Shown piece after piece: positions 46,821-61,690 of a stretch of DNA of 64,000 bases. The stretch lies in the NCBI GenBank assembly GCA_947626265.1, contig CANQRM010000016.1, forward strand, positions 1 through 64,000, in the 5' to 3' direction. Below the pieces are notes generated by a model. The model made no database searches, was not told the origin of the DNA, and worked only from the letters and a program-made list of their open reading frames with translations. Position numbers and translations under genes: made by a program. Within the stretch, counting starts at the first letter, position 1. Each line of letters opens with the position of its first letter. This DNA is from an uncultured Oscillospiraceae bacterium (GTDB lineage: Bacteria > Bacillota > Clostridia > Oscillospirales > Oscillospiraceae).

Positions 46821-46888
46821 ATTATAAAAATCCGATGCTCCTACCGCCACTCTTTATGCACATAAAGCGATTTCTCTTACACGAAATG
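46821..46888 (-). promoter_or_regulatory. Predicted Agr-controlled promoter of the CHAP-like gene
   Basis: Plus-strand boxes GCACATAAAG (46858-46867) and ACACGAAATG (46879-46888) are 21 bases apart. On the minus strand they precede a perfect -10 TATAAT (46821-46826) by 31 bases. There is no good -35, as expected for an activator-dependent promoter. Confidence 0.75.
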
Positions 46889-46940
46889 ATACTGACCATC
46901 TGGGGCGATGAAGATCAGGGTAACATCTGGAGAAAGAGGA

Positions 46941-46978
46941 AAGGACCGCGCACGGCAGATTTGCCATGTACGGTCCTT
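46941..46978 (-). terminator. Terminator of agrD
   Basis: AAGGACCG (46941-46948) pairs with CGGTCCTT (46971-46978), with an inner stem; TTTCCTCTTTC follows on the minus strand. Confidence 0.6.
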
Positions 46979-47019
46979 TCGAACCTCGGTGTCATAGAGA
47001 AAAAGCACAAGAAAGTCTT

Positions 47020-47193
47020 TTATCCTTGCGGCCTAGGCGTCAGTTTGTTGCCTTTCGGTGTTGATTTTGTCGGTCGTTTCGGCTGATATAGTATAGTACT
47101 ACAAAAGGGCGGCCACCCATCGTATTCATAGTTGACTAGGCGATTTACTATATTTTGGAGTGCCACATTTGTTTTCTTATTTTGTTTGTTCAT
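47020..47193 (-). CDS. agrD: Autoinducing peptide precursor (AgrD)
   Basis: 57 residues. An N-terminal amphipathic leader (NKKTNVALQNIVNRLVNYEYDGW) is followed by PPFCSTILYQPKRP and a charged tail. The PPxC...YQPKRP pattern is typical of clostridial cyclic-lactone autoinducer precursors. The signal is likely a thiolactone ring starting at the Cys (C-S-T-I-L-Y region). The start overlaps the end of agrB: the AGGAG ribosome site is inside the last agrB codons, and the ATG is four bases past its stop. Confidence 0.85.
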   Translation of the reverse strand: MNKQNKKTNVALQNIVNRLVNYEYDGWPPFCSTILYQPKRPTKSTPKGNKLTPRPQG

Positions 47194-47197
47194 GTCT

Positions 47198-47758
47198 TTA
47201 GCTCCTTTGTTTAGTAGTATATGCAAAACCCAGCAGTACTGAAGCCAGGATAGCGCCAAAGCAAATCCCGTTGACAATATGGGGCATCGAAAGGGCATAG
47301 CAAAGAAACATAACCAAGAAAACGATTATTACACGTTTTCTTGAAATAACCCTGCATACGAGTATTTCAGTTGGGGAATAGTTCATATTCGGGTGTGGAT
47401 ATGGCGAAAATAACCATATTACTAATGCGCTAGCAGCGGTCATTATCAAAATGGCCCCAAAAGGGAAATCGTATCTTGCACAGGCTAGAATGAGCGATTC
47501 CAAAAGGATAGAACTCAAAAAGCATCTCCCAGGCGTCTTCGCGTGATAGCCATTTGTCATCTGACGCAGATATATGAATGTCCAAAGAAACGAAACGGTG
47601 GTCAGAACGCCAGCTATCAGTATTCCGACTATCACTAGCGGAATGAATGTAACAAATGTATAGAGCTTCTTTTCAATACAGTACCGAAGCATGGGAATGT
47701 CGTCTTCTGCAACGACGTCATGAGAGATACAATATGACAACAACCAATCAACAAACAT
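47198..47758 (-). CDS. agrB: Accessory gene regulator protein B (AgrB)
   Basis: A 186-residue integral membrane cysteine protease that processes and exports AgrD. NGYHAKTPGRCF supplies the catalytic His and Cys at the usual seven-residue distance. About five further hydrophobic segments follow. It is transcribed toward agrD, preceded by a promoter with a LytTR box pair, and separated from the kinase gene by a terminator. Confidence 0.9.
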   Translation of the reverse strand: MFVDWLLSYCISHDVVAEDDIPMLRYCIEKKLYTFVTFIPLVIVGILIAGVLTTVSFLWTFIYLRQMTNGYHAKTPGRCFLSSILLESLILACARYDFPFGAILIMTAASALVIWLFSPYPHPNMNYSPTEILVCRVISRKRVIIVFLVMFLCYALSMPHIVNGICFGAILASVLLGFAYTTKQRS

Positions 47759-47792
47759 ATCCGGGGCCCTTTATAAATAACAGTTTAAATAG

Positions 47793-47859
47793 ATAATACC
47801 ACAAAGAATGATTTGTGCATTGTTTTCTGCACGAAATGAGATTTTTGCTACACGAACTG
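47793..47859 (-). promoter_or_regulatory. Predicted Agr-controlled promoter of agrBD
   Basis: Plus-strand boxes GCACGAAATG (47829-47838) and ACACGAACTG (47850-47859), 21 bases apart, precede -10 TATTAT (47793-47798, minus strand) by 30 bases. This would give positive feedback. Confidence 0.78.
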
Positions 47860-47874
47860 GAACAAAATGAAAAA

Positions 47875-47904
47875 AGACGGCCGTGCTTGCCAGCACAGCC
47901 GTCT
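47875..47904 (-). terminator. Terminator after the sensor kinase gene
   Basis: AGACGGC and GCCGTCT with an inner GTGCT/AGCAC-type stem, followed on the minus strand by TTTTTTC. It separates kinase transcription from agrBD. Confidence 0.8.
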
Positions 47905-47909
47905 CAACA

Positions 47910-49190
47910 TCATCTGGTTGGAATTTCCGCCACAAAGCTAAACCAATAGTCCTGATAGGTCCAAGCATATTCCGCATTCAAGTCATCTAGGAGTCGCTCA
48001 ACATTTTGGAGCCCATAGCCATGATTCTGTTTGTCTGGCTTTGTTGTTCTCGGAATTCCGTTTACAATCTGTACAGGTTCTGTTGTATTGCGGATACTCA
48101 AGGTCATTTTATCAGCCAAGATCATGGAGAGTTGGATCGCTTTCTCGCCTGAATAGCGCTCACAGGCTTCAATGGCGTTATCCAGAAGGTTGGACAGTAT
48201 AACTACGACTTTCTCTGTAGGGATGCTCAGTGCCGCCAAGTCGCTTACCCGGATCTGCATGTCGATCCCATGTTCTTTTGCCGCCTGATACTTTTGATTT
48301 AATATAGCATCTACTATGGGATGATGTGAGTTCACAACAAAGACTCTTGATGTCTGTTTTTCCTGCAAGTCTCGGATATATTGACTAGCGATTTCATACT
48401 GTTGCTTCTCCAAGAGCGAGCTGATCGTATTCATATGATGAGTAAACTCGTGAGAAACAGCTCGCTGAGAATGATAGCTTTGTTCCAAGCTCAAGATATT
48501 TTCTGTTTGAATGTCCATCTGCTGATTCAAAAGAGCTACACGTTGTGAGGCTTTTTCGCTCTTTTCAATTAAGGTGATCATATACATTGTGCCAACGTTT
48601 GCAATTGCAATTGATAAGGTAATTGCCAAGCCTCTTAATGACATATCACTTTCATTACGAGAGTTAAAAACAACAACAAACAGGGAAATATAACTAATAG
48701 CAGGAAAAAGTAGAGTTAAAACTAACCATCTAATTTGCAATTGCTTTTCCGTCGTTTTAGAAAAGAATCGATAGAGGAGCCAGGCAACAAACAAAGCTGA
48801 GAATTTGCTGACAATACCGGCGGAAAGAAACGCATATTTGTGTTGGGTAAGTACATCCATACTAGTTCGCAACAACGCACACCAGATATAAACTACAATG
48901 GCATCAATGACTGTGAGCAGAATACTGGCCATCAATGCAGCCATGATGCGTCTTTGCCATTGCCCGTTATAAAAAAAGAAAGATAGAATAAAATATGTTG
49001 CCGGAGTAAGAAAAGCTATGGGAACGCTTCCTGTATAATATTCTGAAAACCAAAGTATCCAGACAAGAGCTGCGAGAATCAATACATACGAATACTTTTT
49101 CCACTTTTTGTGTTCCATGAAACATTCAAATAGAAGGAACTCGCATATCATTTCCATGGCAATCCAGCAAAGGCTTATCGCTTCAGCCAT
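47910..49190 (-). CDS. agrC: AgrC-type sensor histidine kinase
   Basis: A 426-residue membrane kinase. About six hydrophobic segments in residues 1-210 form the peptide-sensing part. Then comes a coiled coil, the H-box AVSHEFTHHMNTISSLLE, and a GHKL ATPase domain with N-box NLLDNAIEAC and G-box HGYGLQNV. This is the AgrC/HPK10 architecture. I start at the ATG at 49190, which has GGGGAG upstream and overlaps the response-regulator stop by eight bases. It is expected to sense the AgrD-derived peptide. Confidence 0.88.
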   Translation of the reverse strand: MAEAISLCWIAMEMICEFLLFECFMEHKKWKKYSYVLILAALVWILWFSEYYTGSVPIAFLTPATYFILSFFFYNGQWQRRIMAALMASILLTVIDAIVVYIWCALLRTSMDVLTQHKYAFLSAGIVSKFSALFVAWLLYRFFSKTTEKQLQIRWLVLTLLFPAISYISLFVVVFNSRNESDMSLRGLAITLSIAIANVGTMYMITLIEKSEKASQRVALLNQQMDIQTENILSLEQSYHSQRAVSHEFTHHMNTISSLLEKQQYEIASQYIRDLQEKQTSRVFVVNSHHPIVDAILNQKYQAAKEHGIDMQIRVSDLAALSIPTEKVVVILSNLLDNAIEACERYSGEKAIQLSMILADKMTLSIRNTTEPVQIVNGIPRTTKPDKQNHGYGLQNVERLLDDLNAEYAWTYQDYWFSFVAEIPTR

Positions 49191-49920
49191 TAATGATCTC
49201 CCCTTTCCAAAGGAGATAGCGTTCTTTCTGTTCCGCATACTTGGCTGCGCTTGCTTTAAGGGTCATTCCATTATCCAGCTCCGCCTGGTGGCAGGTGTAT
49301 CTTTGGATGTGGGCCATGTTCACCAGGTAGCTTTTATGAATGCGCAGGAAACCTTTTGCGGAAAGATCTTCCTCTAGCTGGCCTATGGAGTTGTTAAATG
49401 TGTAGAACCCCATTTTCTTGGTGTTTGGGAGTTGAATAAAGACGTTGATCTTGTGCAGTTGCGATTCTATGTACAGAATGCTCTTTATGGGTATGTCGAT
49501 TATCTCACCGCTGATTTGGAAACGGATGGATTCGCTTTCTGCTCCAAGGTGCTCTATGGCCTGCTCCAGATAGCGCTCTATCTTCTGCGCCATTTCGCTC
49601 TTCAGAAGATAGCGGAAAGCCCGGACCTCATATCCCTCCGGCGCGTACTCAATGTAATTGGTCAAAAAAATGATGACCGCATCATTCCGAGCCGCCCGAA
49701 GGCGTCTGGCGATGTCAATGCCGTTGTATCGCTTGCCGGTAAAATCAATGTCCAGTATGGCTATGTCGCATTGGACAAGGGTTGATTCACCAATTCCTTC
49801 CATCTCCGTGAATGAATAGACCTTGGCCCGGTCATCGCGCTTTGAAAAGATGTCGTTGACATGCACCCGCAGTTCTTCAAGAAAAACGGCGTCATCATCA
49901 CACAGAAGTACAGTGTACAT
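49183..49920 (-). CDS. agrA: AgrA-type LytTR response regulator
   Basis: 245 residues. The receiver domain (LLCDDDAVFLEEL acidic pocket, phospho-Asp in DIAILDIDF, and LTNYIEYAPEGYEVRAFRYLLK) is followed by a LytTR DNA-binding domain (about 140-240; IRFQISGEIIDIPIKSILYIES, FLRIHKSYLVNMAHIQ). LytTR domains bind pairs of about 9-bp repeats 21 bases apart, which is just what the four promoters here show. The ATG at 49920 sits at the start of the receiver fold; a start nine bases earlier is possible. Confidence 0.87.
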   Translation of the reverse strand: MYTVLLCDDDAVFLEELRVHVNDIFSKRDDRAKVYSFTEMEGIGESTLVQCDIAILDIDFTGKRYNGIDIARRLRAARNDAVIIFLTNYIEYAPEGYEVRAFRYLLKSEMAQKIERYLEQAIEHLGAESESIRFQISGEIIDIPIKSILYIESQLHKINVFIQLPNTKKMGFYTFNNSIGQLEEDLSAKGFLRIHKSYLVNMAHIQRYTCHQAELDNGMTLKASAAKYAEQKERYLLWKGEIING

Positions 49921-50123
49921 ACCTGTCATTACCTTGGCTTTCTGGAAAGTGTCAACCTCACGGAACATTTCAAAGTTGTTTTTATACATGGTACACAAAA
50001 TCCTCCATAATGCAATCAAAACAGGAAAACACCAGTATAATTATACCACATCTGCGCAAAATAACAATTATATTAGAGTCCGGCGTGATAAAATGTTCCT
50101 ATAATATTGTAGGAGTCTTTCAT

Positions 50124-50483
50124 ATGCACGACATTGGGACTCGGCTCAGAGAACTGAGGAAGAGGAAGGGCTGGACTCAAAAGCACCTTGCCCAGTACCT
50201 GCACAAAAGTACTGCCGCTGTCGGCAGTTATGAGCAGAATGTACAAACACCGCCAACTGACGTACTCATTTCACTTGCTGGGCTGTATCACATATCAATT
50301 GACGAATTGCTTGGCTTGACAGGGGAGGAATCATTTACTGTAGATGGGCTAAGCGAACGGCAGAAGGCTGTTTTAGGGTCAATTCTTGACGAATTTCATA
50401 ATCCCACTGGTGATAACCGGGAATTATCACCAGAGCATTTTGGGATTCTGAATGCTCTTATTCAAATATTCATAGGCCAGTGA
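50124..50483 (+). CDS. XRE-family transcriptional regulator
   Basis: 119 residues with an N-terminal helix-turn-helix (IGTRLRELRKRKGWTQKHLAQYLHKSTAAVGSYEQNVQTPPTDVLISLAGLYHISIDELLGL) and a short acidic tail. The ATG at 50124 follows AGGAG eight bases upstream, and TATAAT lies at about 50100. It diverges from the agr kinase operon and is followed by a terminator, so it is an independent gene. Confidence 0.82.
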   Translation: MHDIGTRLRELRKRKGWTQKHLAQYLHKSTAAVGSYEQNVQTPPTDVLISLAGLYHISIDELLGLTGEESFTVDGLSERQKAVLGSILDEFHNPTGDNRELSPEHFGILNALIQIFIGQ

Positions 50484-50514
50484 CGGTGATCTGCGTGATT
50501 GCATAACATTAACG

Positions 50515-50552
50515 ATGGGGCTTCCTGCTTTTTGTCAGGAAGCCCCATTTGG
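50515..50552 (+). terminator. Rho-independent terminator
   Basis: ATGGGGCTTCCTG (50515-50527), loop CTTTTTGT, CAGGAAGCCCCAT (50536-50548), then TTGGGTT. Confidence 0.75.
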
Positions 50553-50623
50553 GTTAAATAGCAAATAATCAGCTTTTGGCCATTGCGCTTTTTCAAATGG
50601 AGCCTGCAATATACGGCCAGTAG

Positions 50624-50691
50624 CAGTTCGTGCAAATTAAATATCAATTGGTGCATGAACAGTTGCGGGGAAGGTCGGACCTCACTATAAT
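50624..50691 (+). promoter_or_regulatory. Predicted Agr-controlled promoter of the plus-strand operon
   Basis: CAGTTCGTGC (50624-50633) and CAATTGGTGC (50645-50654), 21 bases apart, precede a perfect TATAAT (50686-50691) by 31 bases. The boxes have the same orientation to transcription as at the other three sites. Confidence 0.78.
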
Positions 50692-50811
50692 ATGCACAAA
50701 AGCCTTAGAGATGCGCCCATGGATATTGGGCGACACAAACTCCGAAGGTTGCAGATCATGACCTTGGAGAGGGTCGGTAAAAACTACTACTCTATTGCAA
50801 GGAGCGCAAGA

Positions 50812-51228
50812 ATGAAACGTGTCAAAAAGTTAGTCGTGGTAACGCTGGTGGTTATGATGGTTGCTGCCATTTCCGTCCCCGCCATGGCGGCATACGAACC
50901 CTATGCCATTACACTCGCGACAGGAAGTTCGGTAGGGGTGTCAAGCTCAGACATGACCCGGATGGGCACCGGCGGCTGGGCTGTCAATGTTGCGAGCAGA
51001 GCGAACAATAAATACCAAATCACATATGGCCTGCTGCAGCATGGTCTCTATACAGAATGGGATTTCGCCCTTGTGAGTAATACTGTGGCTTCGGCAGGGA
51101 TTGGAACGCTATATGGCACCTATGGTCACAATGTTACGGGCATCGATGTTGATCTCGGCGTTCTCATCAATCAAAACGATGTTAACATGGGCGTCAGAAC
51201 AGTCGGAACATGGACCGCCAATCGCTGA
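50812..51228 (+). CDS. Small secreted protein, first gene of the plus-strand Agr operon
   Basis: 138 residues: signal peptide (hydrophobic 8-24, SVPAMA-AY), then about 112 residues of beta-rich Gly/Asn/Thr-rich sequence (TRMGTGGWAVNVASRANNKY, VGTWTANR at the end). There are no cysteines in the mature part. AAGGAGCG lies before the ATG at 50812. It resembles secreted proteins annotated DUF2712 or lactococcin-972-like in gene context (secreted protein plus ABC exporter/immunity genes), but I cannot assign a family with certainty. Confidence 0.72.
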   Translation: MKRVKKLVVVTLVVMMVAAISVPAMAAYEPYAITLATGSSVGVSSSDMTRMGTGGWAVNVASRANNKYQITYGLLQHGLYTEWDFALVSNTVASAGIGTLYGTYGHNVTGIDVDLGVLINQNDVNMGVRTVGTWTANR

Positions 51229-51301
51229 TCGGCTTGGCGGAATGATGAGTATAAGGGAAAGGATATAACCTTTCCCTTATACTTGTGCTGTAAGAGGAAA
51301 A

Positions 51302-52459
51302 ATGAAAAAATCCAGCTTATATACGGTAGTGTACCTGATACTCATGTCCACGATGCTGTTGGCTTGTGCTAAAACTCCTACGGCTGCATCAGACGAAGCG
51401 AGTATAGCGGAAAATGCAGTTCCACATGAGAATGTTAATATACCGGAGGCGCTGTCCCTTGACGAGGAAAATGCAGAGATACTCAGCAATGCGAGCGGCC
51501 TGGATTTCCATGAGACGGTCCAGCGTACCGATGGCAAAAGAATAAGATTAGACGCGCAGGTGGAAGTAGAGGCCGTTGAGCGGGTAGACTGCTATCAATA
51601 TGAAAATATGACGATCACTGACCAGCAGAAAAGCGATCTTCTTTATGCGTATCTTAACAATCGGGCGTCGGAGGGAGAAGATATATATTTTAATGGTATA
51701 TTTCAGCATTGGCAGTTGAGCAATTCATCTGATCCCGATGATTATTACAAGTACAGTACCACACAATTCTTGGCGGGAGAACATGTTCTCCCGCGGGAAG
51801 ATATATTCATGTTGGAATATGTACCCCGGAATCTAGCCCTCGATCCCTTTGACTACAACCTTTTGACATCCATCAGCGAATCAGGCATGACCACACCTAT
51901 AAAGAACGTGCTTGAAAATTGTGAGGCGCTTTTAACCGCTGTGAGCAGACAAGGTCAGTATGTAGTCGATTACGTCCATGCCTACGGTCAGGACGAGTGC
52001 GTACCCTTTTATAAGGTTGTTTTCAAACAGATAAAGGATGGTATGACCATTACCAGCTATAACGACCTTATTTTTCGGGTGGACGATGACGGAATAGAGA
52101 ATTTCTATGGCCCGGTCTATGGAATTGGCAGGTCTCTGCTCAATAGTCCAATACTTTCAGTCGAACAGGCTGTGGATGTTCTCAAAGAAAATGCAATGCA
52201 GATCTCCTTTGACGAGTTTGGCTACTTCGGGAGTGACGGCGCGTTCATTAGCCTTGTAGGCGACGAACTTACCGTCAGCAGCATCACGCTGGAATACATT
52301 GTCGTTAATCAGGCCGACTGGACAGCGCAAATCGTGCCTGCCTGGAGGTTCAATGTGGGGCAGACAGATGATGAGCGAAATCTGCTCCGTGACCGTGTTA
52401 TTGCGGTGAACGCTGTGACTGGTGAGATCATACAAGGACGGAGGAGCTATAACTTTTGA
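51302..52459 (+). CDS. Lipoprotein of unknown function
   Basis: 385 residues with a lipoprotein signal (TMLLAC; Cys about residue 22). The mature part looks like two alpha/beta units; the end VPAWRFNVGQTDDERNLLRDRVIAVNAVTGEIIQG resembles the last strand of DUF6034/YycH-type lipoproteins. It lies 73 bases after the secreted-protein gene and is coupled to the permease through an overlapping TTG start. It may be an extracellular partner or immunity component of the ABC system. Confidence 0.68.
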   Translation: MKKSSLYTVVYLILMSTMLLACAKTPTAASDEASIAENAVPHENVNIPEALSLDEENAEILSNASGLDFHETVQRTDGKRIRLDAQVEVEAVERVDCYQYENMTITDQQKSDLLYAYLNNRASEGEDIYFNGIFQHWQLSNSSDPDDYYKYSTTQFLAGEHVLPREDIFMLEYVPRNLALDPFDYNLLTSISESGMTTPIKNVLENCEALLTAVSRQGQYVVDYVHAYGQDECVPFYKVVFKQIKDGMTITSYNDLIFRVDDDGIENFYGPVYGIGRSLLNSPILSVEQAVDVLKENAMQISFDEFGYFGSDGAFISLVGDELTVSSITLEYIVVNQADWTAQIVPAWRFNVGQTDDERNLLRDRVIAVNAVTGEIIQGRRSYNF

Positions 52460-53271
52460 GAAAATCATTAAGGCTGCGAATGCGGTCAAACATTTTTTCA
52501 CTGGGTATGCTGGCAAGCGTCACGGCTGGCATCGTACTACTTATGTGGTTCAGTGTGAACACTAACTTGCGATTGCGTCAGATCATTGGCTCTGTGCCGC
52601 TGTTTGACACGGACGAGTACTTTCTGAACGCGATTTACAACTCCCACGCCATGAGCGGGTTTGACCTTTTCGCCCCCATCCTCGCAGTACTACCCGCCTC
52701 TACGCTCTTTTGCGGTGACTATAACAGCGGGTATATCAAGGCTATATTGATTCGTGCGGACAGAACACAGTACATACGGGAGACCGTGCTGTGCTCCACC
52801 ATTGCCGGTGGTCTTGGTGTCTTCTTGCCGAGCCTTATCACCAGCATCTTGTTCATCATCAGCGGAAAATCCCTGTCAGCGGCAAATCTGATGCCCGGCG
52901 AGACGACGCTTCTGGACGGGACGATCTTTGAGAGTGTACAGTTCGTGTGGGGCGGTGGACTTGTTGTCGTGATCTTGTTGGCGTTGGCCTTTCTTTTTGG
53001 TGCTGTATGGTCAAATGTCGGGCTATGCGTTTCCGCCTTTTCTCCTAATCGGTATTTGGCGCTGGCAGCTCCCTTTGCCATATATTTTGGCCTGCATTTG
53101 TTCTGCTATCGCGTGGACTCGCTGCTCATGTTCAGCCCGGTCAATATGCTCATGCCCTTTGTGGACTTCTTGCCCAATATCTTGTATCTGTTTATTTACC
53201 AAGGCGTATTGCTGACGACATCCATCGTTCTGTTTTGCGTGGTCGCCGACAGGAGGTTGAGCGATGTTTAA
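52456..53271 (+). CDS. ABC-2-type permease, plus-strand operon
   Basis: 271 residues with about six hydrophobic segments and the typical loop after the second one (CGDYNSGYIKAILIRADRTQYIRETVL), as in lantibiotic-immunity/bacteriocin permeases. It begins with TTG overlapping the lipoprotein stop and overlaps the next permease by eight bases. Confidence 0.75.
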   Translation: MRKSLRLRMRSNIFSLGMLASVTAGIVLLMWFSVNTNLRLRQIIGSVPLFDTDEYFLNAIYNSHAMSGFDLFAPILAVLPASTLFCGDYNSGYIKAILIRADRTQYIRETVLCSTIAGGLGVFLPSLITSILFIISGKSLSAANLMPGETTLLDGTIFESVQFVWGGGLVVVILLALAFLFGAVWSNVGLCVSAFSPNRYLALAAPFAIYFGLHLFCYRVDSLLMFSPVNMLMPFVDFLPNILYLFIYQGVLLTTSIVLFCVVADRRLSDV

Positions 53272-54124
53272 AATCTGTACCCATCAGCTTCGTCGCTGTA
53301 TAATGTCTACCAGATTCTATGTTGCATTGCTAATTGGTGCGGTCATGCAGATTGTGAGCGTGATGCCTCTTATAGACTATTCAAAAGCGGTCGAAAAACC
53401 GCTCAATCTTTTGGAAGGCTTTGTGTATTTCAACTGCGACACCTTTGCGGCAGCCGCTGCGTTTCTTGGGCTTTTGTTTATGATATCTGATATTCCCTTC
53501 ACATCGCAAGATGAAACTTATACCCTGATGCGGGTGCCTCGAACACAATGGACGATGGGAAAAGTGCTGTACTTATTCAGTATATGCGTTATATACTACA
53601 CAGTTGTTCTTCTGATCGGGATATATTTTCTATCAGAGAACGCATATTTCAGCACAGCTTGGAGCCAGCCCATGTCTTGGCTTGCAAGCAGCAATGCGCT
53701 TAATTATTCGACAGAATATAATGTCTATTTTCCGTATAGCTATATAACGAGTTTGCTCACCCCAGCAAACGCCATGGCGCTATCTTTTTCCCTAAGTGTC
53801 TGTTATGCGTTTGTCATGAGCCTCTTGGTTTTTTTGCTGAACCTGAAGCTTCCTCATGTACTTGCCTACTTTTCAGCCATTATGGTTCATGTTATCAATT
53901 ACAGACTGGCGACAGCATACTCACGTAATTATACTCGATATTCACTTCTGGGGAACAGCCTTCTTATGTACCATGATATCGGTGGCTCTTATGGCAACGG
54001 TTTATATTTGAGGCTCGGGCAATCTTTTTGCATTTACGGTACGCTGATATTGCTGCTGCTGATCCTGCTTTTGTTTGCAATCCGTAGTTATGATTTCAAG
54101 ATCACAGTAGATGTCAAATCGTGA
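53264..54124 (+). CDS. Membrane protein, second ABC permease of the plus-strand operon
   Basis: 286 residues with six hydrophobic segments (about 18-35, 62-82, 102-124, 163-197, 205-225, 255-275). The loop SQDETYTLMRVPRTQWTMGKVLYLF corresponds to the SGY-x-K/R loop of the partner permease. It likely forms a heterodimeric channel with it, driven by the ATPase that follows. Confidence 0.72.
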   Translation: MFKICTHQLRRCIMSTRFYVALLIGAVMQIVSVMPLIDYSKAVEKPLNLLEGFVYFNCDTFAAAAAFLGLLFMISDIPFTSQDETYTLMRVPRTQWTMGKVLYLFSICVIYYTVVLLIGIYFLSENAYFSTAWSQPMSWLASSNALNYSTEYNVYFPYSYITSLLTPANAMALSFSLSVCYAFVMSLLVFLLNLKLPHVLAYFSAIMVHVINYRLATAYSRNYTRYSLLGNSLLMYHDIGGSYGNGLYLRLGQSFCIYGTLILLLLILLLFAIRSYDFKITVDVKS

Positions 54125-54145
54125 TGCTTTCTTAAGGAGCGCAAT

Positions 54146-54790
54146 ATGAATACAATCATAGAAGTACAAGGCGTTTCAAAATCATTTCAAGGGACCAAGG
54201 TGCTGGACAATGTAAATGTTTCCTTTGAGCAGGGACAGATACATGGCATCATAGGTCGAAATGGATCTGGCAAGACACTGCTTATTAAGATAATCTGCGG
54301 ATTTATCCGACCCGACGCCGGTCGCGTGCTCGTGTCAGGAAAAACTGTAGGACACGGTATGACTTACCCAAAGGGTATTGGAGCCATCATTGAAACGCCA
54401 GGATTTTTGCCTTCGCAAAGCGCATATGAGAACCTTCGTTATCTGGCATCGTTTCAAAACACTATCGGCCCAGAGGAAATTCGTCAAGCCATCCAACTGG
54501 TAGGACTTGATCCCTATGATAGGAAACACGTTGGTAAGTATTCGATGGGCATGAAACAGAGACTGGGGCTGGCTCAAGCCATTATGGAAGACCCCGACAT
54601 CCTTATCTTGGACGAGCCGATGAATGGGCTGGACGAACAGGCAGTCGAAGAGGTGCGAAAGCTGCTGCTAGAGTTTAAAGAGAAAGGGAAAACCATCCTC
54701 CTGGCCACCCATGTAGCGGAGGATATAAGTCTTCTCTGTGACAGCGTATATAAAATGGCAGGTGGTGTAATCAGAAAACAGGTTGTATAA
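54146..54790 (+). CDS. ABC transporter ATP-binding protein, plus-strand operon
   Basis: 214 residues with Walker A GRNGSGKT, signature YSMGMKQRLGLAQA, Walker B ILILDEPMNGLD and H-loop LLATHVAED. It is very close in layout to the ATPase at 57632 in the facing operon; both read YSxGMKQRLGxAxA. Small size and the GMKQR signature fit the bacteriocin/lantibiotic-immunity class. Confidence 0.88.
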   Translation: MNTIIEVQGVSKSFQGTKVLDNVNVSFEQGQIHGIIGRNGSGKTLLIKIICGFIRPDAGRVLVSGKTVGHGMTYPKGIGAIIETPGFLPSQSAYENLRYLASFQNTIGPEEIRQAIQLVGLDPYDRKHVGKYSMGMKQRLGLAQAIMEDPDILILDEPMNGLDEQAVEEVRKLLLEFKEKGKTILLATHVAEDISLLCDSVYKMAGGVIRKQVV

Positions 54791-54832
54791 ACATGAATTA
54801 GGTTTTGGTACTCATATGTGAACGGTCGTGCC

Positions 54833-55429
54833 ATGAAAACGAAAAAGTTTGGAAAAGCAAAATAACGACGATACTGATGACTATGGTCATGACTTTGGGA
54901 TACATCTGTGTTCTGGCGGCAGGTGCAGACGCCATAGAAGCGCGCTAACTTGGCTCAGGAACGTCTGGCGGAGGGCCTGGACCGACTTGGAGAGGAGACA
55001 GAGGATTATCTCATGGTCAAGCTCATCAATGATACCGTCAATGACATCACCGTCATCAACATCCGTCCCAACTGGATCTGTGAGTGGTCTGACAACATTC
55101 TGGCCGAAAACGTTGTGCTTGAGGAGGATAAGGAGGTGGTGCTGTGCGTTGAGCTTGATGTCTATGACCTACACTTCACCTTTGATGACTGGACCGTTGG
55201 CGTTATTCACCAGATGGATGTTAACGACATAACTGAAGCTGAGATCCAGCGCCGGTGGAACGGTCTGCCGTATCTTGTGTACACCAGCGTATCCACCGGT
55301 GAGGAAGTGGACACTTCCGACTTTGAAAATCTACGGCTGAAGCGGAGTTCGCTGCGGGCACATGGGCTTACGGCGACATCACTATCGCCAGATTCAGTAA
55401 CAGTTCTTCTAGATGATGATTGCTTCTGA
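54833..55429 (+). pseudogene. Frameshifted secreted protein gene at the end of the plus-strand operon
   Basis: An ATG at 54833 starts MKTKKFGKAK and stops. One extra A in the A-run near 54866 would join it to ITTILMTMVMTLGYICVLAAGADA, a membrane/signal segment. A second break near 54946 shifts into ERLAEGLDRLGEETEDYLMVKLINDTVNDITVI and onward to 55429. The C-terminal part (NWICEWSDNILAENVVLEED) has the beta pattern of small extracytoplasmic proteins. It stands where the facing operon has its DUF5028-like gene. The 160-residue frame from 54950 (TTG) could still be made without a leader. Confidence 0.6.
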
Positions 55430-55503
55430 CACAGTAATATTAACAGAATTATTAGTAGGGATTACTCGAAGATAAAGAACCGCGATTATAATGAGTCAAA
55501 GAA

Positions 55504-55546
55504 CAGGGACTCTAGCAGATTGAATGAAAGTCTGCAGGAGTCCCTG
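55504..55546 (+). terminator. Terminator of the plus-strand operon
   Basis: CAGGGACTC (55504-55512) pairs with GAGTCCCTG (55538-55546), with an inner GCAGA/TCTGC stem. The downstream T-content is modest. Confidence 0.6.
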
Positions 55547-55615
55547 TATAAGTAAGTAATATAGGTAATGTCAAGGATTATGCGCAAAATAGGATGCAGT
55601 CTCTGGCGTGTAAGG

Positions 55616-56584
55616 TCAGCAGGCAATAGCGGCGTCTTCCTCCATGGCCTCCAAGTGCTTCATGTTCATGTATTTCTTATTGCCCCACTGGGTGCCAGCA
55701 ACGTGGCGCAGGCGGGCACAGACAAGCATAAGAGCAGAGTTCCCGTCCGGGAAGCAACCGACCACTCTCGTCCTCCGGCGGATCTCGCGGTTGAGCCGTT
55801 CCAGGACGTTGTTCGTTCGGATGCGTGTCCAATGCTCCGAGGGGAAGTCGGTGTAGGTCAACGTTTCCTCCACGCCGTCCTCTATTTTCTTCGCCGCCTC
55901 AGGCAGCCGCATGGCCCGGAGCATTTCCGCCACCTCTTTCGCCTTCTTCCGGCAGGCGGCCTTGCTCTCCTGGGCGTGGATCGCCTTGAGCATCCTGGCC
56001 ACTGTTTTCATTTTGCCTCTGGGCACGACAGAGAAAACGTTCCGGTAAAAATGGACGGTGCAGCGCAGGTACTTGGCGTCCGGGTATACTTCGCCTACGG
56101 CCTCCAACATCCCCATGCACTTGTCGCCAATAATGAGTTTAACACCGTCCAGTCCCCGGCCGCGGAGCCACTGGAAGAAGCTCACCCAGCTGGACTTGTC
56201 CTCTTTCATCCCCTCGGCAGCGCCCAGGACTTCGCGGTAACCGTCCTCATTGACTGCAATGGCGACCAGAATGGCTACATTTTCATATTCCCCGCCCCAG
56301 TTACGGCGCAGATAGATCCCATCCACATAGACATACGGATACTTCCCGCCCTGCAGCGGACGATTCCGCCAGTCCTCAATATGCACATATGCTTTCTTGT
56401 TCAGCTCGCTGATCGTGGACGGCGAGACCTTCGCTCCCCAGAGGGCTTCCGTTATATCCTCCATCCGGCGTACAGAGACACCTGCCAGATACATCTCTAT
56501 GAGCGCTTCCTCCACGCTGCTCTCCCGCCGGCGGTACCGCTCTATGATGGCCGTCTCGAAGGAAACGCCCTTGAGGCGCGGCAT
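55616..56584 (-). CDS. IS256-family (Mutator) transposase, N-terminally truncated
   Basis: 322 residues, against about 400 for the family. It keeps the DDE region: YVYVDGIYLRRNWGGEYENVAILVAIAVNEDGYREVLG, LIIGDKCMGMLEAVGEVYPDAKYLRCTVHFYRNVFSVVP and the late ERLNREIRRRTRVVGCFPDGNSALMLVCARL. The usual 80-90 residue N-terminal DNA-binding part is missing: in-frame similarity stops at HMPRLKG and a stop codon lies a few codons upstream. I found no clear terminal inverted repeats. It sits exactly between the two converging operons and is probably inactive. Confidence 0.82.
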   Translation of the reverse strand: MPRLKGVSFETAIIERYRRRESSVEEALIEMYLAGVSVRRMEDITEALWGAKVSPSTISELNKKAYVHIEDWRNRPLQGGKYPYVYVDGIYLRRNWGGEYENVAILVAIAVNEDGYREVLGAAEGMKEDKSSWVSFFQWLRGRGLDGVKLIIGDKCMGMLEAVGEVYPDAKYLRCTVHFYRNVFSVVPRGKMKTVARMLKAIHAQESKAACRKKAKEVAEMLRAMRLPEAAKKIEDGVEETLTYTDFPSEHWTRIRTNNVLERLNREIRRRTRVVGCFPDGNSALMLVCARLRHVAGTQWGNKKYMNMKHLEAMEEDAAIAC

Positions 56585-56764
56585 ATGTGGAAGATGAAAA
56601 GGGCAACTTTAAAGAATTGTTTTTTCCCATAGGCAACACACTAGATAGGCGATGAAGATAATCAATAAGTACATAAAAGGTTCATTACGAATGCTGAAGA
56701 TATCATATCTTACAAAAAAGCCGATACATAGAGGGAGAAGCAACTCGCGGTGCGGGCTTATGGG

Positions 56765-56950
56765 TCATACTGACGGCCGCTCCCCTCTGGTGGATTCTAT
56801 TTTATCCAAAACCCTTGTTATGGTGTCCTCCGGGGCCGTGATCTGCCTATATTTTTCTTTGGTCGCTATTATCAGATCCTCAAAAGTATCCCCGGTGGAA
56901 GAAGTGTCATTCACTGGATAGGGATTCTCATTTATAATATGGTATTTCAT
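56765..56950 (-). CDS. Small hydrophilic protein, last gene of the minus-strand operon
   Basis: 61 residues (MKYHIINENPYPVNDTSSTG onward), no membrane segment or known motif. A good AGGAG site seven bases before the ATG and its place 19 bases after the DUF5028-like gene support a real gene. It may once have been longer, since the IS remnant lies just downstream. Confidence 0.5.
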   Translation of the reverse strand: MKYHIINENPYPVNDTSSTGDTFEDLIIATKEKYRQITAPEDTITRVLDKIESTRGERPSV

Positions 56951-56969
56951 AATTAGCTCCTAGATATTA

Positions 56970-57635
56970 TTACGCAACAGAGAGTGTGATCCTTTCGCTC
57001 ACTGGGTGCCATGTTATACTGAGATACATCGGCTCCTCATCCAATCGCTCCCAGCCTCTGGATGTAAATTCAGACCTGTTATAGTCGTAAACGATATTGA
57101 TGGTATTGCTTGAGCCTTGGCGTAAGAATATCCCTAAAGCGTCGCCATAATGGCTGGACAAGTTTTCGTTATAAGCATTAAGCAAAAAGTCGTTTGCCAA
57201 AATTGTCAGCGGTGCATCAAGATTCAATCTGAATTGGGTCCCATCACAAGTTATATTTTCAAGATACGGCCCCTCCGCATCGCTGTCCTCGTTAAAGAAA
57301 GTGGTCGTCACCAGGAGTATTTTTTCCGGCAGGCCGCTGGTGTCCCCCAGCAGAGCGGCTGCCGATTCGCTCGTTTGGCCGAACCGTTCAATAAATTTTT
57401 CGTAAGTAAGCACCTCTGCTTTGTCCGCCCGCACAGAATAGCCGTCCAAAATCTCGCCGGTGTAATCAGCATAATTATCCCCGTAGGGTACGATCTCGCC
57501 CATTTCATGATAGCGCACTTCAAAGCCATATCCCGTGTCCAGCATTTGTGTTATCTGCCGGTTGCGAATGACCGTCGTGCCAATCAGAAGCACTACCGCC
57601 AAAATGATGATGCACAGCTTGGTCCCTCGTTTCAT
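56970..57635 (-). CDS. Membrane-anchored protein, DUF5028-like
   Basis: 221 residues with one N-terminal membrane segment (about 7-23) and an outside domain (DTGYGFEVRYHEMGEIVPYGDNYADYTGEILDGYSV...ITWHPVSERITLSVA). The layout fits DUF5028 proteins that accompany bacteriocin-like ABC operons; I cannot confirm by search. Its start overlaps the ATPase stop by four bases. Confidence 0.65.
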   Translation of the reverse strand: MKRGTKLCIIILAVVLLIGTTVIRNRQITQMLDTGYGFEVRYHEMGEIVPYGDNYADYTGEILDGYSVRADKAEVLTYEKFIERFGQTSESAAALLGDTSGLPEKILLVTTTFFNEDSDAEGPYLENITCDGTQFRLNLDAPLTILANDFLLNAYNENLSSHYGDALGIFLRQGSSNTINIVYDYNRSEFTSRGWERLDEEPMYLSITWHPVSERITLSVA

Positions 57636-58285
57636 GCGGCTGTCCCTCCCTTTGCTCGGTCCATGATCCGCCCATGCTCGATGGTGAAAATAACGTCCGC
57701 CATCGTTTGCAGGCGCTCACGTTCATGGGACGCCACCACCACGAGCGCGCCCCGCGCTCTCTCCTCGCGGATGATCTCGGAAACCAATTCTACCCCGTCG
57801 CCGTCAAGGGCGTTAGTAGGCTCGTCCAGAATAACAATGTCGGGCTTTTCAAAGACGGCGGCGGCGATACCCAGCCGCTGCTTCATGCCCAGGGAATACT
57901 TGCGAAATTTGCGTTTGTCCTCCGGGTCAAGGCCGACGCGGGAGATTTCCTCCCTGATCTGCGCGGTGTTCGCTATGCCGCGCAGGGAGGCGATGAGTTC
58001 CAGATTTTCTAATCCCGTATAAGAGGGCAGAAAGGCGGGATTCTCCAGAAATATCCCGATGGAGGGGGGAAAATCTATATCTGTTCCCAGCGTCTTTCCG
58101 TCGATTTGGACTTCGCCGCTTGTCGGAAGCAGTAGACCGGAGATCAGCCGCATGAGCATGGTCTTGCCGGAACCGTTATATCCTTGCAAGCCATATACCT
58201 GTCCGCTTTCCAGCCGTAGGCTGACACCACTTATTACCTCCGTTTTATGGATGGTCTTGCTCACGTTGCTCAATACGATTTCCAT
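57632..58285 (-). CDS. ABC transporter ATP-binding protein, minus-strand operon
   Basis: 217 residues with Walker A GYNGSGKT, signature YSLGMKQRLGIAAA, Walker B IVILDEPTNALD and H-loop VVASHERE. It is the counterpart of the ATPase at 54146. It follows the permease by one base and is coupled to the membrane-anchored protein downstream. Confidence 0.88.
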   Translation of the reverse strand: MEIVLSNVSKTIHKTEVISGVSLRLESGQVYGLQGYNGSGKTMLMRLISGLLLPTSGEVQIDGKTLGTDIDFPPSIGIFLENPAFLPSYTGLENLELIASLRGIANTAQIREEISRVGLDPEDKRKFRKYSLGMKQRLGIAAAVFEKPDIVILDEPTNALDGDGVELVSEIIREERARGALVVVASHERERLQTMADVIFTIEHGRIMDRAKGGTAA

Positions 58286-58286
58286 T

Positions 58287-59135
58287 TTATAACTCCTTAT
58301 AATCCGGTAAGATATTCCGTCTGCGAAAACAAAATATCCCCGCAGAGACTGAGAGGACGAATACGGCCAGACATATCATCAGACCGACTCGCTCATTCAA
58401 ACCGTCCGCGGCGATTGTCGCAAAGCGGGCCGGGTTGGCATAGTTCCCGATCAACAGCGGCGTAGAGGCGTATGCTGACGCCGCTATCAGGCCCACGGAA
58501 ACAATAAAGCTATAAACGGGCTTAATCAGCAGGCTCAACAGCATTTCCAGCATATCCAGCGCAGCGACAGCCGAAAAAAGAAGCAGCACCACAAAGGCAA
58601 ATTGTTTGACGGTCAGGTTCCCGGCGGCTTCCGTCAGATACACTTCGGCATAGATCGTGCGCAATGCGCCGCCAGATATGTTCATGTCCAGTGCGCCGCC
58701 GGTGCATAGGCAATATGCGGCGGCAGAGCCGCACACCAAGAGAAAGCAAATTACTGTGACTAGAAGATTCCAAAGACATTTGGACAGCCACCAGCGAACG
58801 CGGCTGCCGCTGCGAAGCAATATCTGCGTCCCGACTGTTTTTATATCCCGAAAGGGATAGTTCAGACACGCGAAAAGGGGCAGCACCAACATGGCCACCC
58901 AAAGAGCAGGCAGTTGAAAGCCCTTGTTAGCTTGTATAGCCTCGCGGCTCATGGCCCGCGCCCCCTCAAAGCAGTACATGATATACACAGACCACGACCC
59001 CGTATAATCGTATACCGCCAGCATATTCCGGCACTTGTCACAGAGCAGCACCGTAAGGGCCGGGATCAAAAGCAGGGTCCAGTTGTGCAATATCCCGTTT
59101 TTCAGGTCATAGCGAAAAGCCCTAAAGAATTTCAT
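58287..59135 (-). CDS. Membrane protein, second ABC permease of the minus-strand operon
   Basis: 282 residues with about six hydrophobic segments. FFRAFRYDLKNGILHNWTLLLIPA begins the protein, and RDIKTVGTQILLRSGSRVRWWLSKCLWNLL is the coupling loop. I use the ATG at 59135, preceded by GGGGG and overlapping the previous gene by 14 bases; a longer frame (to 59204) would overlap it more. Confidence 0.74.
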   Translation of the reverse strand: MKFFRAFRYDLKNGILHNWTLLLIPALTVLLCDKCRNMLAVYDYTGSWSVYIMYCFEGARAMSREAIQANKGFQLPALWVAMLVLPLFACLNYPFRDIKTVGTQILLRSGSRVRWWLSKCLWNLLVTVICFLLVCGSAAAYCLCTGGALDMNISGGALRTIYAEVYLTEAAGNLTVKQFAFVVLLLFSAVAALDMLEMLLSLLIKPVYSFIVSVGLIAASAYASTPLLIGNYANPARFATIAADGLNERVGLMICLAVFVLSVSAGIFCFRRRNILPDYKEL

Positions 59136-59970
59136 TCCGTTTCCCCCTGAGATAGTAAACGAAAAACACCGCCGCCAGCAGCACTGCGATAATAGTCCAA
59201 ACATACCAAGCCGGGTTAATTCCGTATGAGATAGCGTGGAGAAGCTGGAACGGATTTTTGTCTAGTCTCTGCCATACGGTGCTGTCAACGGTTTGGTATG
59301 TCCTTTCACTGAGTACGGAACCGGCCAAAAAGAGAATGAACGGTGACAACACGGCGGCGATGGCATGAGGGATAAACATACTCGCTGTCATACCCAGGCA
59401 GGCAAGCGTCCCACCCCAAAAGAAGCAGGTCACGATACGGATCAATACGAACGCCATTGGATGGGTGAAAAATAGATGGCTCAGAAACTGCCATTGCCCA
59501 CCCCCCGTAATGACTGGAGAAGATAGGCAGAGCGGCAGGAACCACATATTCGCAATGAAATTAAGGATCATAGGTATCGCAATCGCCATGCCACCTGATA
59601 GAAACACGACAAAAAACTTGGAAAGCAGATATGTTTTTTTGCTTTCCCGCACGAGGAGATGGTTCATATAGCCAGTGCTCCATTCGCTTCGCAGGGACCA
59701 TGCGTAAGGGAGCGCAGCCAGAAGCGGGAATATGGTGAAGAATACAGCTTCTCCCAACGAAACCTGCAGACCGTCGATCCAGTTTGCAAAAATACTTAAC
59801 GTCGAATACCCTGTCCCGTCGCCATCCAAGTAATTATCCAGCCAAGGCTGGGCCGTCTGACAGTTCTCCACCACATTGATTCCGCAGGCAATCATGCCAA
59901 TGAGGATAGCCCCCCACAACGCCGGGCAGCGGAGCATTTTGTGCAATTCCGCTTTGAATACCGTTTTCAT
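59122..59970 (-). CDS. ABC-2-type permease, minus-strand operon
   Basis: 282 residues with six hydrophobic segments and the loop LRSEWSTGYMNHLLVRESKKTYLLSKFFVV, the same position and character as CGDYNSGYIK... in the permease at 52456. Likely half of a heteromeric ABC channel. It overlaps the next gene and lies nine bases after the lipoprotein. Confidence 0.75.
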   Translation of the reverse strand: MKTVFKAELHKMLRCPALWGAILIGMIACGINVVENCQTAQPWLDNYLDGDGTGYSTLSIFANWIDGLQVSLGEAVFFTIFPLLAALPYAWSLRSEWSTGYMNHLLVRESKKTYLLSKFFVVFLSGGMAIAIPMILNFIANMWFLPLCLSSPVITGGGQWQFLSHLFFTHPMAFVLIRIVTCFFWGGTLACLGMTASMFIPHAIAAVLSPFILFLAGSVLSERTYQTVDSTVWQRLDKNPFQLLHAISYGINPAWYVWTIIAVLLAAVFFVYYLRGKRNEIL

Positions 59971-59979
59971 GTTCCTACC

Positions 59980-60897
59980 TCAAGAAGCCTTTGCTGGGTC
60001 GAGCCAGACATATTCGGCGTTATCGGCCTCGAAATTTCCATAGCTGTTGCTGAGATACAGATGGGTAAAATCATCTTTTTCATTGCCAACAATAAAGGCT
60101 GCCTGATAGGTCAATGTCTCGCCAGGTCGAAGGATAAAATGGTTTTCCGCGCCGTTATAACTCAGCGATGCGTCATATTCGCCGGTGTTTGCGTACCATG
60201 TGGGGTAAATGCTTATACAAGATAGATAACCGGCACCGTTGTCCTCGATCTGACTTGTATCGCACAACTGAAGACTGGCAACATTAAAGATATAATTATA
60301 TACGTCGTTGTTTGGATCATTCGCCGCAGTATGCGCCTTCGCGTCTACATTTTCAACCGTGATGTCCGCCAGCACAACGCGAAGATGATCTGCCAACTGA
60401 CCAGTCTGCATATCCACATAATCTTCACGGCTTTCAAATGCGACCATATCCTCGCCGCTGTCGCCAACAAGATATAGGACTAACTCGTTTTCATCCAACT
60501 CCGAGGGCTCTATGTTCAGTTCCTTTACATTGTCAGAAATCTGATAGCTGTTGACGGTGTAGAGCAGCGTGCCCTGGGCCAGTTCCACTGTGTTATTGAA
60601 ACTCTCGCCCAATGCCAGCGCGTCAATTTCAGCGTCCGGGGCAGTCAGATTCTTCTGCGTAACGGATTGGACGACTTCAGGCGCGGAGGATTCCTGGTCA
60701 GAAGGAGCATATTCATCTGGCTCTCCCTGTGTGGCTTCCGTTATTCCTTTGCTCTCATGCTCTGTGCCGCTCCCGGAACTGGTGTAGCCTTCCGATACCG
60801 GTGACGGCGGCGCTTCTGCGGAGGCATCATTGCTGCACCCTTGGACAGATAAAAGAAGGCAAACCGCTAACAATAGAACATTGACTTTTGTTTTCAT
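59980..60897 (-). CDS. Lipoprotein of unknown function, minus-strand operon
   Basis: 305 residues with lipobox SVQGC (Cys at about 21), a Ser/Glu/Pro-rich spacer (about 25-80), then a beta-rich domain (LYTVNSYQISDNVKELNIEPSELDENE; LRPGETLTYQAAFIVGNEKDDFTHLYLSNS) of the DUF4352/DUF5027 telokin-like kind. It fills the lipoprotein slot as 51302 does in the facing operon, though the two are not similar in sequence. Confidence 0.7.
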   Translation of the reverse strand: MKTKVNVLLLAVCLLLSVQGCSNDASAEAPPSPVSEGYTSSGSGTEHESKGITEATQGEPDEYAPSDQESSAPEVVQSVTQKNLTAPDAEIDALALGESFNNTVELAQGTLLYTVNSYQISDNVKELNIEPSELDENELVLYLVGDSGEDMVAFESREDYVDMQTGQLADHLRVVLADITVENVDAKAHTAANDPNNDVYNYIFNVASLQLCDTSQIEDNGAGYLSCISIYPTWYANTGEYDASLSYNGAENHFILRPGETLTYQAAFIVGNEKDDFTHLYLSNSYGNFEADNAEYVWLDPAKAS

Positions 60898-60979
60898 ACG
60901 ATCTCCTTTCTTAAAGGCGGTGCATATGGAAAACCGTATACACCGCCTAGGTAACTGCCTTGATGTTTAGGTAATCATA

Positions 60980-61480
60980 TTACTGCGTCGCGTCCACATG
61001 GGCATATGCACTGTCAGGACTCCAGACGCCCGTGATAGTGTCGTTGCTGGAGCCAGCACTATAGAAAGCCAGCTTAGCGTAGGAATCACCGCGCTCATTC
61101 ACCAGGTTGTGGATGGAATACTTGACCCCCAATTTGCATGTCACATAACCGACAAGACCGACACCGCTGACGGTCGTGCGATTAACCCAACCATTCTTAC
61201 CACCCGTGCTACTCGTGCCGCCCAGCACTCGGACAAATGTCTTCGAGTATATGCCAGAGGTATAATAGAGGTAAACAGCGGACGTGTCGTTCTTTGCACG
61301 TGCCGCAGAGTCGGGCATCGGGTTATAGCTTCCAGCGGTTGCGGTGAAGCTGAACCCAGTATCCGAAGTATTGGGTGTGGCGGCAAAGGCAGAGATGCAG
61401 AGCGCCGAAGAGAGGACCATCACAACCAGCAGAACAGAAAGAATCCTTCGGCCTGACTTGATGCCAGTTCTTACTTTCAT
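60980..61480 (-). CDS. Small secreted protein, first gene of the minus-strand Agr operon
   Basis: 166 residues: signal peptide (hydrophobic 13-32, SAFA-AT), then a domain with TGFSFTATAGSY, ARAKNDTSAVYLYYTSG, LVNERGDSYAKLAFYSAG and the C-terminal GVWSPDSAY. This pattern fits secreted proteins of the DUF2712 kind found near agr or ABC genes in Firmicutes. AAAGGAGC precedes the ATG at 61480. A LytTR box pair lies upstream. It may be a bacteriocin-like or signalling protein; no toxicity evidence is visible. Confidence 0.73.
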   Translation of the reverse strand: MKVRTGIKSGRRILSVLLVVMVLSSALCISAFAATPNTSDTGFSFTATAGSYNPMPDSAARAKNDTSAVYLYYTSGIYSKTFVRVLGGTSSTGGKNGWVNRTTVSGVGLVGYVTCKLGVKYSIHNLVNERGDSYAKLAFYSAGSSNDTITGVWSPDSAYAHVDATQ

Positions 61481-61623
61481 AACAGTTGCTCCTTTATATA
61501 TTATTTCTAATCACCATATGGTATAAGACTTGCCGGGCCCAAGCAGTTACTTATCTGCACATGGTGTATTAGACGTTTGGTCATTTCAACGTGATTAACC
61601 ATTTCTGCTCTGTATTTTCTTTT

Positions 61624-61690
61624 ATCATACTCAAGTAAACTAAAATATCCATTCTTTAAGCATAAACAGTTATTTTTCTTACACAAACTG
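61624..61690 (-). promoter_or_regulatory. Predicted Agr-controlled promoter of the minus-strand operon
   Basis: Plus-strand boxes GCATAAACAG (61660-61669) and ACACAAACTG (61681-61690), 21 bases apart, precede -10 TATGAT (61624-61629, minus strand) by 30 bases. The boxes are the weakest of the four sites. The rest of 61481-61931 shows no gene. Confidence 0.7.

Follow-up and report, generated by a model that had tools for sequence, protein, structure and literature searches.

The 64,000-nucleotide stretch of DNA analysed here (the window; positions 1 to 64,000 of contig CANQRM010000016.1 in assembly GCA_947626265.1, from an uncultured Oscillospiraceae bacterium) carries an Agr-type quorum-sensing system on a mobile element, and the question raised by this locus is which promoters the system controls. 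An earlier note made from the sequence alone had proposed that four pairs of related boxes with a fixed geometry define a regulon of the AgrA-like response regulator. We consider it probable, at roughly 85%, that the AgrA encoded on the element itself uses the four pairs as its operators and that they serve quorum-controlled antagonism and self-protection on an integrative conjugative element. This kind of circuit is already known, and is here found on a mobile element of a gut bacterium; it would provide a compact, testable quorum-sensing regulon, complete with predicted signal peptide, operators and targets, in a little-studied group, the gut Oscillospiraceae.

Direct inspection of the DNA confirmed the four pairs, their positions and their strands, with both boxes 10 bp long and their starts exactly 21 bp apart in all four. 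Written in the direction of transcription, the pair upstream of agrBD (47829..47859, minus strand) reads CAGTTCGTGT-N11-CATTTCGTGC, and the −10 hexamer TATTAT (47793..47798, minus strand) lies 30 bp past the end of its second box. The pair upstream of a gene for a 234-residue secreted CHAP-like protein (46858..46888, minus strand) reads CATTTCGTGT-N11-CTTTATGTGC and is followed after 31 bp by TATAAT (46821..46826, minus strand). The other two pairs precede operons encoding a secreted protein and an ABC transporter, which we name by their starts: op61 (61480-56970, minus strand), with CAGTTTGTGT-N11-CTGTTTATGC at 61660..61690 and TATGAT at 61624..61629 (both minus strand, 30 bp), and op50 (50812-54790, plus strand), with CAGTTCGTGC-N11-CAATTGGTGC at 50624..50654 and TATAAT at 50686..50691 (both plus strand, 31 bp). 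The distances to the −10 (30, 31, 30 and 31 bp) agree with the 30 or 31 bp given in the earlier note, and the pairs precede the genes it had named, where the CHAP-like gene behind the pair at 46858 is 45954-46658 and not the conjugation CHAP gene at 61932-63887. The repeat of the element can be summarised as CANTTYGTGY, and its layout is that of a LytTR promoter, namely direct repeats with a period of about 21 bp placed just upstream of the −35. No pair turned up in the scans ahead of agrAC, which is separate from agrBD. A third box in the agrB promoter, suggested by peaks at other spacings in the matrix test described below, was left out as unproven.

The Agr genes themselves were identified by family searches. 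The regulator gene (49183..50019, minus strand, probable start 49920) encodes a receiver domain (PF00072, E 1.1e-7) and a LytTR domain (PF04397, E 3.2e-15); the protein scores 24.4 bits against the NCBIfam AgrA equivalog model, whose cut-off is 400, and is therefore not that equivalog. The agrC-like sensor kinase gene (47910..49238, minus strand) encodes a HATPase_c_5 (GHKL) domain (PF14501, E 2.1e-17), and agrB (47198..47758, minus strand; PF04647, E 1.9e-24, 86.5 bits against a cut-off of 23) is predicted to act in peptide processing and export. AgrD precursors are marked by a Cys core and a proline-rich charged tail, and both are found in the translation of a 57-codon reading frame adjoining agrB (agrD, 47020..47193, minus strand, core GWPPFCSTILYQPKRP), which has tblastn matches in loci L041, L042, L043, L048, L063, L076, L077 and L081. 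An AgrB family protein, an AgrD precursor and an AgrC-type HATPase_c_5 kinase with a LytTR regulator are thus all present. Divergent from agrA is a gene for an XRE-type regulator (50124..50483, plus strand, PF01381; the reading frame is listed from 50010 and 50124 is its probable start), and a related XRE gene is divergent from agrA at six further loci (L041/L065, L042, L043, L047, L063 and L066). The XRE-type protein may, and this is a guess, decide if the circuit is switched on.

A pattern fitted to the four pairs matched the window exactly four times and none of 100 dinucleotide shuffles, and a scan of the 3.2-Mb host genome likewise returned four exact matches, all inside the window. Since the pattern derives from the four sites, these exact-match tests are partly circular, and the statement that they are the sole four operators in the genome would rest on a pattern fitted to those four. 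A leave-one-out matrix test is less circular: across four held-out sites, two scoring schemes and 127,937 positions, the held-out site ranked first in seven of eight cases and second in one, where the op50 pair was outscored by a site at 52939 inside a coding region. Looser matches of the window pattern comprised two-mismatch matches on host contigs C32, C11 and C13 and 38 three-mismatch matches, among them the site at 52939 in a reading frame; the match on C32 was rejected as an operator as the hexamer at the expected −10 place agreed at only 2/6 positions.

Presence of the pairs at orthologous loci was observed directly. Of 35 genomes of the genus, 5, the host's own among them, contain an AgrA orthologue at E 1e-40, and the four others are represented by loci L065 (which contains L041), L042, L063 and L064, into which the matches of genomes G326, G310, G320 and G318 fall. 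Taking the top window-matrix scores per locus gave seven further pairs, three in L065, two in L042 and one each in L063 and L064. Pairs lie upstream of agrB in L041/L065, L042 and L063, and another precedes the CHAP-like orthologue in L041/L065; the gene behind the third L065 pair belongs to the mediterrocin family (its identical L041 copy scores 100.3 bits, with the cut-off at 40), and the pair on the 18-kb contig of L064 stands directly before a lipoprotein/ABC operon. As a side observation, L064 keeps agrA, agrC and the box pair (4982-5123) while its contig yields no match to agrB or agrD, so that it may be a listener without its own signal. Two radical SAM genes lie near the agr locus of L065 (5659-8197), one with a weak SPASM match, and a similar-looking gene is found near the C2 Agr locus (L077) of the host.

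For the 11 sites (the four of the window and the seven orthologous ones), box likeness is partly selected, because the matrix picked the seven, whereas the −10 and −35 were not selected. A hexamer at least 4/6 like TATAAT occurs at offset 30-32 in all 11, and in 10 of them nothing in the scanned range scores higher, the exception being L063 with a better hexamer at offset 41. In 9 of 11 sites the −35 position, some 16-18 bp ahead of the −10, is occupied by TG (absent in L063 and L064; ambiguous for L065 agrB). Across the 22 half-sites T4, T8 and G9 are invariant (22/22), and position 1 is C in 19. Loci whose AgrA is 65-86% identical share the same box type. Beyond these, a record labelled as phage (human faeces), with an AgrA 38% identical, has GATTTCGTGA-N11-CATTTCGTTA upstream of agrB with the boxes 8/10 alike, a pair that is rare by sequence-blind score (0.28% of 720 random stretches). 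Among spacings of 19-23 bp the best pair fell at 21 in eight of nine regions (23 in L047), and upstream of agrB 21 bp was the spacing of the best-scoring pair, outright or in a tie, in 9 of 12 loci, with L047 (18), L081 (20) and L108 (20) as exceptions. Against the 720 random stretches, with L076 set aside, the best 21-bp score was not rare (above 5%) in L063, L047, L048, L081 and L108; the top pair of L043 is ambiguous, differing between two scans. L108 contains a perfect 10-bp repeat, CCGTTATTCA, upstream of agrB (10692-10721), with starts 20 bp apart, which is perhaps a further operator type. In viral contigs 10 stretches matched a pattern and none of them encodes an AgrA relative, and all tblastn matches to plasmids (15 records) and phages (the best 20 of 36 records) were below 60% identity.

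The host itself has other Agr loci. Its genome gave four matches to the window AgrA at E 1e-30, itself included, and a fifth AgrA-type regulator was found with the C1 query, so that the host has at least four more at the cut-offs used. At C1 and C2 a CACTTTGCAY pair with 21-bp spacing precedes each agrB, and on the opposite strand a like pair precedes a secreted/lipoprotein/permease/ABC operon, with the −10 at 30 bp in all four cases; at C8 a CARTTTACTG pair, also at 21 bp, precedes an SLH gene, as it does in the genus relative L104. Patterns for these second and third types were also fitted to their own sites: genome-wide, the second gave six matches at up to two mismatches, four of them exact and all at C1/C2 (control 0), and the third gave one match at up to three mismatches (control 0). 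A one-mismatch match of the second type on C12 was dropped, as it lies inside a 1036-codon reading frame, and a two-mismatch match lies on C24. Three further AgrA loci thus have pairs of two other types, found among the matches examined only at promoters beside themselves. Upstream of the agrA of the fifth locus (L103, 8552, minus strand) there is a candidate pair, ATGCAGGTTT-N11-ATGCGGGTTC, with a −10 and another sequence, which is unproven.

The three box types share CANTT and differ after it, and in an alignment the LytTR domains of the types differ after the SYLVN motif; such parallel operator types in one cell form a natural set for asking how LytTR domains choose their DNA. The C8 operon is homologous to op61, and the ATPase and permeases of the C1 and C2 operons are homologous to those of op50; the lipoproteins of op50 and C1 are not alike. 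We tentatively suggest, at a little under even odds, that this genome holds several insulated Agr circuits in parallel; in each, a constant CANTT half would be joined to a variable half (YGTG, TGCA or TACT) read by a dedicated AgrA and coupled to a separate operon for secreted/ABC or surface proteins, and mobile elements would distribute the circuits as plug-in modules. The proposal that the regulator at 49183 activates the four promoters is supported by its receiver and LytTR domains beside AgrC, AgrB and AgrD, by the boxes at orthologous AgrA loci and by the different boxes at the three other host AgrA loci, with activation itself a prediction.

The circuit would work as follows. AgrB and AgrD would make a cyclic peptide, with AgrB exporting it; AgrC would sense the peptide and phosphorylate AgrA, which would occupy both boxes from the same side of the helix, immediately upstream of a weak −35. 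From there it would switch on the promoters, much like PlnC in L. plantarum (PMC2714321) and the LytTR regulators of S. mutans (PMC6193735). Activation of agrBD would provide positive feedback, and AgrA would also activate the secreted CHAP-like gene and the two operons, whose products are in each case a lipoprotein, an ABC transporter resembling LanFEG and a small secreted protein. The output would most likely be density-dependent antagonism plus self-protection, with the antibacterial function a prediction.

The gene content of the targets is as follows. In op50, the small secreted protein (50812..51228, plus strand) is an orphan with no Pfam match and one NCBIfam match at E 0.21, and it had zero matches at E 0.001 in 299 other sampled genomes of the family; it is followed on the same strand by a lipoprotein (51302-52459) and two probable permeases (52456-53271 and 53264-54124), all called from the sequence with no family match, and by an ABC ATPase (54146-54790, PF00005). 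Op61, on the minus strand, begins with a small secreted protein with a signal-like N terminus (60980..61480; DUF2712 at E 0.017 and two NCBIfam matches at E 0.07, all below cut-off), for which the 299 other family genomes gave only weak matches, in 6 of them and confined to residues 1-102. Then come a lipoprotein (59980-60897), two probable permeases (59122-59970 and 58287-59204), an ABC ATPase (57632-58285) and a DUF5028-like protein (56970-57635, below cut-off). The order of small secreted protein, lipoprotein, two probable permeases and ABC ATPase is common to both operons. The best NCBIfam model for both ATPases is TIGR03740, lantibiotic protection ABC (181.7 bits for op50 and 168.6 for op61, below the cut-off of 309.75). 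The lipoprotein and transporter invite comparison with LanFEG/LanI, and together with the secreted protein they would suit a bacteriocin with self-protection, which would connect the Agr system of a conjugative element with a bacteriocin-type output. The 234-residue CHAP-like protein (45954..46658, minus strand) matches TIGR02594 (E 0.0012) and CHAP (E 0.027), both below cut-off, and has an 86% identical counterpart in L041. The Cys and His that are normally catalytic in CHAP domains seem to be missing from it (WGGYF, NRGIV), and its role may be binding and not catalysis.

Several results weigh against this interpretation. With up to three mismatches the fitted pattern matched genome-wide 45 times and its reversed control 70 times, and therefore only the exact sites stand out. 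A strict scan blind to the sequence of the boxes (10-mers at least 8/10 alike at 21 bp, with a −10 of at least 5/6) returned six matches in the window, two of the four sites and four elsewhere, with 0.3 expected by first-order resampling, and it recovered none of the seven sites in L065, L042, L063 and L064. Spacing and the −10 alone therefore do not single the sites out. The refuting condition of the earlier note, equal numbers of such pairs in shuffled or unrelated DNA, did not arise for the fitted pattern, with 0 of 100 shuffles; for pairs of any sequence, which also occur at the four other places, the test is not clean. The strict scan found no pair in L045, L079, L080, L105 or L106 and was also empty in L042, L043, L047, L048, L063 and L108; it gave single matches in L103 (before agrA), L049 and L107, and its matches in L064, L065, L066 and L081 differ from the sites described here. 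At the distant AgrA loci L047, L081 and L108 the pair is weak, absent or otherwise spaced, and by the window matrix the phage-labelled record with the 38% identical AgrA has its pair in first place by a narrow margin (10.3 versus 9.8). The SLH gene beside the regulon (43852-45435) is without a clear pair in the 220 bases before it. The secreted proteins of the window resemble no bacteriocin family, and structure models of the secreted protein (50899-51225) and the CHAP-like protein were unusable, with a mean predicted local distance difference test score of 31.6 and 29.7, respectively, and were therefore kept out of fold searches. The case for the sites is carried by box sequence and conservation. 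If the pairs were chance similarities chosen by eye, the fitting of the pattern to its own sites, the failure to exceed the control at three mismatches and the extra blind matches would be as expected, but the leave-one-out ranks, the shuffles and above all conservation, with orthologous promoters carrying pairs at the same −10 spacing, contradict this, and we regard it as barely credible.

It is improbable that the boxes serve as operators for a different regulator, such as a LytTR protein of the host or the XRE protein encoded divergently at 50124. A related XRE gene does adjoin agrA in six further loci and the host does have the additional AgrA-type regulators; however, three host AgrA loci have different boxes, 21-bp direct repeats upstream of the −35 are a LytTR layout, and the box type is shared by those loci whose AgrA is 65-86% identical. 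Doubt about the output has more substance, in that the regulon may be real and its secreted, CHAP-like and ABC products may alter the cell surface or the conjugation of the element. SLH-type proteins adjoin AgrA/AgrC loci, and the secreted proteins of C1 and C2 in the host carry peptidoglycan-binding domains. Moreover, the secreted proteins of the window match no bacteriocin family in Pfam and NCBIfam searches. Against such a role stand the gene of the mediterrocin family that L065 has behind this operator type and the ABC ATPases, whose closest model is lantibiotic protection, though below cut-off, and we hold it to be unlikely, while clearly more plausible than control by another regulator. 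Operators of the element's own AgrA that govern antagonism and self-protection remain our preferred reading.

Pairs were also scored in the 220 bases before 13 genes other than agrB. For op61, op50 and the SLH genes in L075 and L104 the highest score fell on the known pair, at the L065 bacteriocin gene the known pair shared first place, and no clear pair was found there for the SLH genes of the window and L065 or for 51302. This scoring is uninformative for the CHAP-like genes (window and L065) and the secreted-protein genes of L042, L076 and L077, where the known pair starts 225-285 bases off. Secreted proteins of SLH-domain type recur beside AgrA/AgrC loci (window 43852-45435, L075, L103, L104, L106 and L107), with a pair of their own in L075 and L104.

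The layout seen in the window is common to published LytTR promoters. PlnC/D repeats are 9 bp with a 12-bp spacer upstream of the −35 (PMC2714321), LytTR repeats of S. mutans lie 4-11 bp upstream of the −35, with 8 for HdrR and BrsR (PMC6193735), and RgaR repeats are placed at G-51/G-72 (PMC10602386). The plantaricin (pln) regulon of Lactobacillus plantarum is similar in having five operons, each with a tandem-repeat pair of 21-bp period upstream of the −35, and in combining a peptide, a kinase and response regulators with bacteriocin and transport operons; in contrast, the element has an AgrD-type signal with AgrB, one regulator, a conjugative location and CANTTYGTGY in place of TACGTTAAT (PMC2714321). 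Staphylococcus aureus agr shares AgrB, AgrD, AgrC and AgrA and paired direct repeats upstream of a promoter, whereas in the element agrAC is apart from agrBD with no pair found before it, the repeat sequence is another one, and linked secreted/ABC operons are the predicted targets (PMC4227749). In Clostridioides difficile, RgaR acts on VirR-like direct repeats with a 21-bp spacing to activate agrB1D1 and a small number of further promoters, but there RgaS is the kinase and RgaR the regulator, the output is sporulation and the repeat sequence differs (PMC10602386). On phage phiCDHM1, too, Agr quorum-sensing genes are carried by a mobile element of Clostridia; the abstract describing it lists agrD, agrB and agrC, to which the element analysed here adds agrA and target operons (PMC3901668).

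The mediterrocin (lactococcin 972 family) comparison rests on the family member behind the same operator type in L065 and on mobile elements in the known cluster too (PMC12345188), whereas the secreted proteins of the window do not match the lactococcin 972 family. The main text of the mediterrocin paper has no word beginning with 'agr' and no 'two-component' (PMC12345188). Among the titles and abstracts of the matches listed, with subscription literature mostly outside this scope, none that we noticed describes an Agr regulon carried by a conjugative element with its operators mapped.

The mobile-element proposal is supported on both sides of the regulon. On one side lie a tyrosine integrase gene (39389-40666, minus strand; PF00589, E 1.4e-16) and an xis-like HTH_17 gene (40666-40908, minus strand; PF12728, 26.0 bits against a cut-off of 27), and on the other a conjugation-module CHAP gene (61932..63887, minus strand; PF05257). 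The module continues on the rest of contig C16 (L058) with VirB4-like (PF19044), coupling-protein (PF02534), DUF3801 and relaxase (PF03432) genes. With an integrase, a relaxase, a coupling protein and a VirB4-like ATPase, the element is an integrative conjugative element as classified from its genes; contig C16 ends at 76,112 with element genes still present. In L063 the agr locus lies beside a conjugation CHAP gene 69% identical to that of the window, and L065 has the last 52 residues of this protein at 98%. The element also carries a match to the Rfam pemK RNA (RF02913, 58.2 bits) at 41668-41783, beside a PemK/MazF-type toxin gene.

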